From: Clostridia bacterium
Lineage (GTDB): Bacteria; Bacillota; Clostridia; UBA1381; UBA9506
Reading direction: 5' to 3'
NCBI GenBank assembly: GCA_017546245.1
Contig: JAFYXI010000018.1
Location: 1-48,591 of the forward strand
DNA: 48,591 nucleotides
Shown: one piece after another, positions 26,627-29,035 of the stretch
Numbering within the stretch: the first letter of the stretch is position 1
Layout: every line of letters starts with the position of its first letter
The notes under the pieces: model-generated
What the model was told of the DNA's origin: nothing
What the model saw: the letters and a program-made list of their open reading frames with translations, nothing else
The model's database searches: none
Program-made: the position numbers and the translations under genes

Positions 26627-27100
26627 TTATTTGTTGCGCTCTTTTATTGCTCTATCCATATTGCGTTGAGCTTCTTTTTTTGCTATATCATCACGCTTGT
26701 CATAATTTTTCTTACCGCGTGCAATCGCAATTTCAATTTTAACAAGACTGCCTTTAAAATATAACGAAAGCGGAATGATTGATACACCTTGCTGTTTAAC
26801 AGTACCTATCAAACGATTGATTTCTCGTTTGTGAAGGAGCAGCTTTCTGTCACGCAATGGGTCTTTGTTAAAAATATTACCCTGTTCATAAGGACTTATA
26901 TGCATACCTTTTACAAAGGCTTCGCCTGTTTTTAAAGATACATAGCTGTCTTTTAAATTAACAGCACCTTTTCTTAAAGATTTTACCTCTGTTCCCGAAA
27001 GTTCAATTCCTGCCTCTATAACCTCGTCGATAAAATAGTCGTGACGAGCTTTTTTATTTACAGTTATATTTTTAATTGATTTTTTATCCAGAATTTTCAC
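26627..27100 (-). CDS. smpB: SsrA-binding protein SmpB
   Basis: Delivers tmRNA to stalled ribosomes for trans-translation. The 157-residue protein contains '[29 protein letters not shown]', '[27 protein letters not shown]' and the basic tail '[26 protein letters not shown]'. I prefer GTG 27100, preceded by GGGAAAGG; a TTG 12 bases upstream is the alternative. The tmRNA gene, often next to smpB, was not found in the window. hpf lies upstream on the same strand. Confidence 0.95.
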
Positions 27101-27158
27101 GACCTTTCCCAATCAAATTGCAATCCTTATAAATTATATATTAAAAGGCAGAAAATGT

Positions 27159-27190
27159 CAACGGGTTACGCAGCTTTGCGTAACCCGTTG
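27159..27190 (-). terminator. Hairpin between hpf and smpB
   Basis: A 14-bp perfect stem (27159-27172 with 27177-27190), loop of four. The minus-strand downstream bases (ACATTTTC) form only a weak T tract. It probably ends or attenuates the hpf transcript. Confidence 0.7.
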
Positions 27191-27198
27191 TTGCTTTA

Positions 27199-27735
27199 CT
27201 ATTCAAGTTCAATCAAACCATAAGAGCCTTGTTTTCTTTTATAAACAACATTTGTATCTCCGCTTTCGGAATTTGTGAAGATAAAGAACTGATGCCCTAA
27301 AAGGTCCATCTGAAGAATTGCCTCTTCTGTGCTCATCGGTTTTGCAGAAAAACGTTTTGTGCGTGCAATTTTAAATTCGGTTTCTTCTTCAACCTCTTCT
27401 TTATATGGGATTGCAGCTAAGGCTGCCGCCTCAAAGGTATCCTTTTTAAGCTTCTTTTCGATGCGTGTTTTATGCTTTCTTAACTGACGCTCTAAAACAT
27501 CTACTGCAGTATCGATTGAAACATACATATCATCAGTTGCTTCTTCAACACGAACAATAAGTCCGCCCGAATGAACAGTTGCCTCTACAACCTGTTTTTC
27601 TCTTTGAACACTTAATGTAACGTATGCCTCCGTTTCTTTATGAAAATATCGGTCAAGTTTTGAAAACCTATCCTCAATCCGCGCCTTAAGTGCGGGGGTA
27701 AGCTCAATCTGTTTTCCGCTCATTGTAATTTTCAT
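27199..27735 (-). CDS. hpf: Ribosome hibernation-promoting factor, long form
   Basis: Inactivates ribosomes as 100S dimers in stationary phase or stress. The 178-residue protein has an N-terminal ribosome-binding domain ('MKITMSGKQIELTPALKARIEDRFSKL', cut here to key parts) and a C-terminal dimerisation domain ('FSAKPMSTEEAILQMDLLGHQFFIF'), so it is the long type typical of Bacillota. ATG 27735 has AAGGAG 8 bases upstream; the in-frame GTG nine bases before overlaps that site. A sigma-B-like promoter lies about 65 bases upstream, fitting stress control. Confidence 0.94.
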   Translation of the reverse strand: MKITMSGKQIELTPALKARIEDRFSKLDRYFHKETEAYVTLSVQREKQVVEATVHSGGLIVRVEEATDDMYVSIDTAVDVLERQLRKHKTRIEKKLKKDTFEAAALAAIPYKEEVEEETEFKIARTKRFSAKPMSTEEAILQMDLLGHQFFIFTNSESGDTNVVYKRKQGSYGLIELE

Positions 27736-27798
27736 TATGACCACTCCTTGTGTATGTATATTTGTAAAAAGGAATAATATCTATTCCTTATAATATTT

Positions 27799-27824
27799 AT
27801 ACCCACGTTTAATTATCTTTAAAC
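27799..27824 (-). promoter_or_regulatory. Sigma-B/sigma-F-like promoter before hpf
   Basis: On the minus strand, GTTTAA (27819-27824), 14-base spacer, GGGTAT (27799-27804) equals the Bacillus sigma-B consensus (GTTTAA, GGGWAW) and nearly fits sigma-F. A small stem (27770-27789) lies in the leader just downstream. Confidence 0.6.
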
Positions 27825-27904: not shown

Positions 27905-29035
27905 ATGAAAAAAATCAGTATTTTTTGTATATTTTTGATTGTTTTTACTTGTTTGCCGCAAAGATATGAGGCGCTTGGTGTGTCAGCATCCTATGCTTGT
28001 GTTATGGACAGCTTAACAGGTCGTGTTTTGTATGAAAAAAACGCATATAAGCGACATTCAATGGCAAGCACTACTAAGATAATGACTGCGTTAGTCGCAT
28101 TAGAAAACGGAAATCCAGATGATGTAGTGACAGTAAGCGCAAATGCGGCAGGCACAGAGGGATCAAGCATATACTTAAAAACAAATGAAAAAATAAAGCT
28201 TATTGATTTGTTATACGGCCTGATGTTAGCATCGGGCAACGATGCGGCAATCGCAATAGCCGAGCATATAGGCGGAAGTGTAGATGACTTTAGTAAAATG
28301 ATGAACGACAAGGCAGCCGAGATAGGTGCAAAGGATACGCAGTTTAAAAATCCTAACGGTTTGGATGAAGAGGGGCACTATACTACAGCATACGATTTGG
28401 CACTTATTACACGCGCGGCGCTTAAAAACAAAGATTTTTCAGAAATCGTAAAGACCAAAAAAAAGACAATATCAAACGGAGAAGAAAGCTATGGCAGAGC
28501 ACTTTCTAATCATAATAAGCTGCTTAATCTTTATCAGGGTTGTGACGGAGTAAAAACGGGATTCACCAAGAAGACAGGTCGGTGTTTAGTATCGGCGGCA
28601 ACCCGTAATAACTTTCAGGTTATAGCCGTTACTTTAAATGCACCCGATGACTGGAATGACCATACAAATATGCTTAATTATGCTTTTAATAATTACAGCG
28701 CAAGACCTTTGGTTTTAAAGGATATGGTTATTAAAACAGTTCCTGTTGAAAACGGAGATACCGACACAGTAAAGCTCTTGGCAAATGACGTTTTTTATCT
28801 TACAATGGAAGATAAAGAGGGATTAAATAAAGTAAAGCTTGAATATGACGTACCAAAGAGCATACCTGCACCGGTTATGAAAGGAACAGTTCTCGGCAAA
28901 CTCAAAATTTTTTATGAGGGTGTAATGGTTAAAGAAATAGAACTTGGTGCAGATTGCGATATTAAATATGTAGAACCGCCAAAGAAAAATACGTTTGAAA
29001 AAATCGCAGATTTTTTTATAAATTTGTGGGATTGA
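27905..29035 (+). CDS. Serine D-Ala-D-Ala carboxypeptidase (peptidase S11)
   Basis: Penicillin-binding protein that trims the terminal D-alanine from peptidoglycan stem peptides. The 376-residue protein has a signal peptide (about 1-24). The three active-site motifs are STTK (55-58), SGN (110-112) and KTG (217-219). The C-terminal beta domain (about 270-350) is of the PBP5 type; it ends 'FEKIADFFINLWD', a possible amphipathic membrane anchor. It belongs to the DacB/DacF group, but which one cannot be decided. GGAGG ribosome binding site. Single-gene unit with its own terminator. Confidence 0.94.
   Translation: MKKISIFCIFLIVFTCLPQRYEALGVSASYACVMDSLTGRVLYEKNAYKRHSMASTTKIMTALVALENGNPDDVVTVSANAAGTEGSSIYLKTNEKIKLIDLLYGLMLASGNDAAIAIAEHIGGSVDDFSKMMNDKAAEIGAKDTQFKNPNGLDEEGHYTTAYDLALITRAALKNKDFSEIVKTKKKTISNGEESYGRALSNHNKLLNLYQGCDGVKTGFTKKTGRCLVSAATRNNFQVIAVTLNAPDDWNDHTNMLNYAFNNYSARPLVLKDMVIKTVPVENGDTDTVKLLANDVFYLTMEDKEGLNKVKLEYDVPKSIPAPVMKGTVLGKLKIFYEGVMVKEIELGADCDIKYVEPPKKNTFEKIADFFINLWD

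Follow-up and report, generated by a model that had tools for sequence, protein, structure and literature searches.

The window, as we call the whole 48,591-nucleotide stretch analysed here, encodes on its minus strand a long-form hibernation promoting factor of 178 aa (hpf, 27199-27735, ATG at 27735), whose product scores above the cut-offs for both S30AE domains (Pfam PF02482 and PF16321). On the same strand, the sequence reads a ribosome binding site, AAGGAG (27744-27749), and, in the intergenic region 89 nt 5' of the hpf ATG, a -35 box GTTTAA (27819-27824) separated by a 14-nt spacer from a -10 box GGGTATA (27798-27804, of which GGGTAT occupies 27804-27799). The original prediction had placed GTTTAA-N14-GGGTAT at 27799-27824 before hpf, and the motif lies exactly there, in minus-strand orientation. 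Transcription is predicted to start at 27789-27790 (minus strand), at a conserved T and A 8-9 nt past GGGTATA, where a 5' hairpin of the hpf leader also begins (27769-27789, minus strand; arms AAGGAATAG and TTATTCCTT, 3-nt loop). Divergent from hpf on the plus strand is a D-Ala-D-Ala carboxypeptidase-like gene (27905-29035), with NCBIfam matches below cut-off. On the other side, within 27133-27190, a perfect TTGACA-N17-TATAAT on the minus strand precedes the adjacent gene (26627-27112, SmpB-like by eye) and overlaps a 14-pair stem between that gene and hpf that is called as a terminator on either strand.

To place the site in its order, 61 genomes were searched, of which 57 gave an hpf match (none in G027, G031, G033 and G051) and 56 a readable hpf start, the match in G040 being cut by a contig end. 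At least 11 of the 13 box bases are found in 51 of these 56 upstream regions, against 27 of 1120 Markov-shuffled sequences (2.4%); the boxes are thus kept across the order, a positive outcome of the conservation check proposed with the original prediction, and are missing only in G007, G008, G010, G012 and G020. In the 51 box-bearing genomes, GTTT of the -35 box is identical throughout and the three G of the -10 box are present in 37, 51 and 50 genomes, respectively, counts that are somewhat favoured because the rows were picked by a score that includes the box bases. In the same genomes, the central part of the spacer is almost uninformative.

Motif counts by themselves give no such signal. 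The loose pattern GTTT..GGGNA matches three times in the window (5.7 expected, no excess), GTTTAAN{12,15}GGGTA matches five times in the window's own genome and five times in the reversed control, and GTTTAAN{13,15}GGGTATA gives 29 matches in the 61 genomes of the order and 29 in its reversed control. Of the former 29, however, 21 lie directly 5' of hpf and three before dgt. Likewise, GTTT..GGGTAT is not enriched in four genomes (48 matches vs 62 in the control); 36 of the 48 sites fall within ORFs on either strand and 12 are intergenic, comprising four before hpf, four before dgt and four single cases. Three of the single cases are in G001, a genome of the same genus (upstream of spoIIAA, of a 127-aa ORF and of an ORF judged AlkD-like by eye), and the fourth, in the window's own genome, has no ORF within 300 nt downstream. 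The spoIIAA case (L199) reads GTTTAT-N13-GGGTAT, 76 nt 5' of the spoIIAA start; before the same gene the window's own genome reaches only 10 of 13 box bases. Position and conservation, rather than counts, therefore set the hpf site apart from chance. No recurring targets beyond hpf and dgt were found at the stringency used, and further targets with looser boxes may exist. A promoter so well conserved offers a handle for tracing the regulon in metagenomes.

The second recurring site, GTTTTA-N14-GGGTATA in the window's own genome, lies 60 nt 5' of the ATG of dgt, which encodes a dGTPase-like product and heads dgt-dnaG-rpoD. In 25 genomes dgt was matched in full, and 15 of these have at least 12 of 13 box bases before it, against 0.2% of shuffles. 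Within the window's family, the hpf and dgt promoters agree in 19/19 genomes, 15 having both and four neither, and in 6/6 genomes outside the family the dgt boxes are absent, which makes dgt a local target.

The window's own genome gives nine sigma-70 region 2 matches. Six are assigned by NCBIfam score and context as SigA (encoded behind dnaG), SigF (behind spoIIAA and spoIIAB, with a score just under cut-off), SigG, SigE, SigK and SigH, and two short matches are ECF-like by eye. The ninth is a third SigB/F/G-family sigma of 254 aa (G000:C15:78429-79193), which scores 135.6 bits against the NCBIfam SigB equivalog TIGR02941 (cut-off 315) and 198.7 bits against SigBFG (cut-off 234), below the cut-off in both cases. 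The rsbVW-linked sigmas of other Clostridia also miss TIGR02941 (192.6-220 bits, 5/5 tested), so this cut-off does not separate the two. Orthologues scoring at least 185 bits occur in 48 of the 61 genomes, the window's own included, with paralogues at 126 bits or less; G021, G023 and G025, where a partial but specific match of 104-132 bits covers the N-terminal half, were counted as having the sigma, and ten genomes have no match. The G007 sigma is divergent; a broken gene was ruled out there, the reading frame being open over 252 aa. In a quick, midpoint-rooted tree of 97 sequences, in which long branches were flagged and no Bacillus SigB was included, the order's sigma clade (SH-aLRT 100) falls among sigmas whose genes follow rsbV-rsbW in other Clostridia and is set apart from 15 SigF/SigG sequences. 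The third sigma is thus likely, on this phylogenetic placement, to belong to the SigB lineage. Its G056 representative has the same sequence as the sigma of Candidatus Ornithomonoglobus intestinigallinarum (NCBI: Clostridia incertae sedis), and from this name we infer that the order is akin to Monoglobales. The literature searched, to which most subscription journals did not belong, yielded work on sporulation prediction for Monoglobus but nothing on SigB in Monoglobus or its kin.

Sigma and hpf boxes tend to occur together. Among the 56 genomes, 45 have both, six have the boxes only, one (G007) has the sigma only and four have neither; the six boxes-only genomes compare with 5.3 expected from genome incompleteness alone. 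The corresponding Fisher p value of 0.0026 ignores kinship, the independent losses numbering two or three (genus g6, G020 and perhaps G007). The dgt promoter agrees with this link between sigma and boxes, because it is unlinked to the hpf promoter and yet the two are absent together with the sigma. G008, G012 and G020 are informative in this respect: they still encode SigF/G-type factors (rows L151-L154, placed with that group in the tree), lack the third sigma and have boxes neither before hpf nor before dgt.

From these comparisons we consider it very probable that the site is the hpf promoter and is read by polymerase carrying the third SigB/F/G-family sigma, of the SigB lineage. Among the alternatives, an ordinary sigma-A promoter that merely resembles the SigB type is improbable, but fares best. 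An overlapping reading, TTTAAA-N16-TATAAA, does exist in the window with 4 and 5 of 6 matches, and relatives often have TATATA after GG. However, sigma-A requires neither the G of GTTT nor the GG before TATA, both of which are nearly invariant here, and the boxes go missing along with a different sigma. Moreover, a sigma-A promoter score, devised after the cases had been seen, reaches at least 10 in only 3 of the 51 box-bearing hpf regions but in 4 of the 5 box-less ones, these being the four without the sigma; the clearest sigma-A-type promoter among the latter is TTGGCA-N17-TATAAT in G010. We give somewhat less credence still to recognition by SigF or SigG, by which hpf would be made in the forespore. 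SigF and SigG promoters are of the same broad kind as those of SigB, the window's own genome encodes SigF (with spoIIAA and spoIIAB) and SigG, and a similar site precedes spoIIAA in the one genome of the same genus. The three genomes that retain such factors in the absence of both the third sigma and the boxes nevertheless make SigF and SigG unlikely readers, and the -10 box fits the printed SigB consensuses. Finally, it is hardly conceivable that the inverted repeat GTTTAA-N6-TTAAAC (27807-27824) is a repressor operator. Its 6+6 bp match perfectly in the window, but one arm sits in the spacer, whose middle is unconserved, and G002, with a 99% identical Hpf, no longer has the repeat intact.

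The reading by a SigB-lineage sigma accordingly sustains the main claim made for this site, a sigma-B-like promoter before hpf, with boxes in 51 of 56 genomes and a likely reader. The original prediction had also reasoned that the site would imply a sigma-B or related sporulation sigma, to be sought as sigB/rsbW or sigF/spoIIAB. A SigB-lineage factor is indeed encoded besides SigF, SigG and SpoIIAB, but no rsbW stands beside it, and the sporulation half of that expectation loses ground with the three genomes above. In the mechanism we propose, a stress or starvation signal would free the third sigma, which would bind the GTTTAA/GGGTATA boxes and start hpf transcription near 27789; the resulting Hpf would promote ribosome dimerisation. 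In the window's family, the freed sigma would also turn on dgt-dnaG-rpoD, and with it primase and the housekeeping sigma.

The hairpin at the start of the hpf leader is a further conserved element. The leaders of 35 of the 51 box-bearing genomes can form a stem of at least 6 pairs (G-U counted as half) at this position, whereas shuffles do so in 5.9% of cases and control windows taken upstream in 3 of 49; among dgt leaders, 1 of 15 has such a stem. Folding energy places 29 of 51 hpf leaders in the lowest 5% of their own shuffles (mean z -2.1). Each of the seven stem levels that were counted shows four to six types of pair, so that pairing is kept while the letters change, in an alignment that itself favours pairing since the stems were found by search and aligned from the loop. 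In G008, where the boxes are gone, a hairpin is still predicted before hpf. Rfam gave no match at gathering score near hpf and one chance-level match at a relaxed threshold, and the literature within reach, most subscription journals lying outside it, yielded nothing on a hairpin in hpf mRNA. Our preferred reading is that the hairpin would stabilise the hpf mRNA during dormancy, a protein-binding site being as likely.

Regulation of hpf by this sigma lineage probably predates the order, as suggested by the enrichment of GGGTAT before hpf in outside genomes with rsbVW-linked sigmas. Counting a single hpf for each genome and omitting the order's own L319, it occurs within 250 nt upstream of hpf in 12 of 23 such genomes, against a shuffled mean of 1.84, with 0 of 500 shuffles as high. 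With full boxes at spacers of 12-15, one of the 23 reaches 12 of 13 box bases and ten reach 11, the -35 box being looser before hpf outside the order than within it. The consensuses printed for C. difficile, WGWTT-N13-17-(G/T)GGTWA (PMC7494833), and used for S. epidermidis, GttTww-12-15-gGgwAw (PMC2824700), both accommodate the hpf boxes (spacer 12-17). Published systems of Bacilli agree with an older origin: SigB and SigH sites are described in the B. subtilis hpf (yvyD) promoter (PMC12421865), in line with the sigma-B/sigma-H control of hpf in Bacillus named in the original prediction, and S. aureus hpf is under SigB control according to PMC6256015. Both resemble the present case in having a SigB-type promoter before hpf; unlike them, the window's organism has no canonical rsbVW-linked sigB and has a leader hairpin. 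Similarly, in S. epidermidis sigA has a SigB-dependent promoter according to PMC2824700, feeding dnaG-rpoD/sigA in the macromolecular synthesis operon, whereas here the promoter precedes the dGTPase-like gene that heads dgt-dnaG-rpoD. Faecalibacterium A2-165 is stated in PMC10781979 to have no SigB gene.

Taken alone, the promoter belongs to the known SigB-type hpf promoters. What departs from the textbook is the control of its sigma: the partner-switch genes rsbV and rsbW are missing beside it and a membrane protein remains. The standard example of a sigma factor controlled by partner switching is SigB, and the order's sigma clade is nested among the sigmas of clostridial rsbV-rsbW-sigB operons (Tissierellia, Peptostreptococcaceae and others); GGGTAT is enriched before the hpf genes of these Clostridia. 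Yet rsbV-rsbW were found beside the sigma in 0 of the 30 loci of the order examined (51 genomes have the sigma), whereas in outside loci the 1.2 kb upstream of the sigma contain an RsbW-like ORF in 40/40 and an RsbV-like one too in 38, a comparison in which some RsbV/RsbW queries originated from those same outside loci. In 28 of the 30 loci, homology search instead places a membrane protein of ~220 aa, with a single hydrophobic span after a short N-terminal tail, directly upstream of the sigma. Its homologue stands upstream of rsbV-rsbW-sigB in 4 of the 40 outside loci (L232, L234, L235 and L236), the sigmas of which are sister to the order's clade with support 90. Because these four loci retain both the membrane protein and, unlike the order, rsbV and rsbW, the ancestral operon was probably membrane protein-rsbV-rsbW-sigB, as judged from gene order, with the middle lost in the order. 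In the literature searched we have met no other SigB-lineage sigma that lacks its partner switch and has so small a visible regulon.

Only one stand-alone RsbW-family kinase, SpoIIAB, exceeds the Pfam cut-off in the window's own genome. A second, unlinked kinase of this family occurs in several relatives, and also in G012 (54% complete), where no sigma was found, so a distant, unlinked partner switch may operate in some of them. The weakly scoring second HATPase_c_2 matches, in frames of 142-177 aa unlinked to the sigma, are at G003:C52, G005:C17, G009:C9, G011:C24, G012:C30, G014:C20 and G015:C60.

The membrane protein is the input to the sigma that we predict, tentatively and with rather less than even confidence. 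G022 counts against a strict anti-sigma role for it, since this genome has no membrane protein beside the sigma and yet keeps the sigma and a 13/13 hpf promoter. Upstream of the membrane protein-sigma operon itself there is no convincing box pair that would indicate autoregulation (best scores 7-11 of 13). NCBIfam gave no match at E 0.001 for one membrane protein tested, and Pfam none over cut-off for three. A structural model (mean pLDDT 82) gave a weak Foldseek match to solute-binding proteins (E 3.5e-3, TM 0.31), and with VIA-align 2 all 50 matches listed were solute- or substrate-binding proteins (Z 9.0-10.4, rmsd 3.2-4.0, 124-137 residues), Z values only slightly above that of unrelated models, in a likeness of fold that shows no function. 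In the model, the outer domain thus weakly resembles part of a solute-binding protein. The broader scheme, in which the order's SigB system shed RsbV-RsbW, came to be run by a membrane-anchored, solute-binding-protein-like sensor inherited from the ancestral operon, and had its regulon reduced to a minimal dormancy set (hpf, with dgt-dnaG-rpoD in one family), is more speculative than the input alone and in our estimate likelier wrong than right. If true, a lineage that keeps SigB and its hpf target in the absence of the adjacent switch would reveal by what other means SigB can be restrained, and would tie ribosome hibernation in largely uncultured gut bacteria to an outside signal in a way open to testing. 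The membrane proteins of the four sister loci are mostly longer at the N-terminus than those of the order, and in L232, L234 and L236 this N-terminal extension is J-domain-like by eye.
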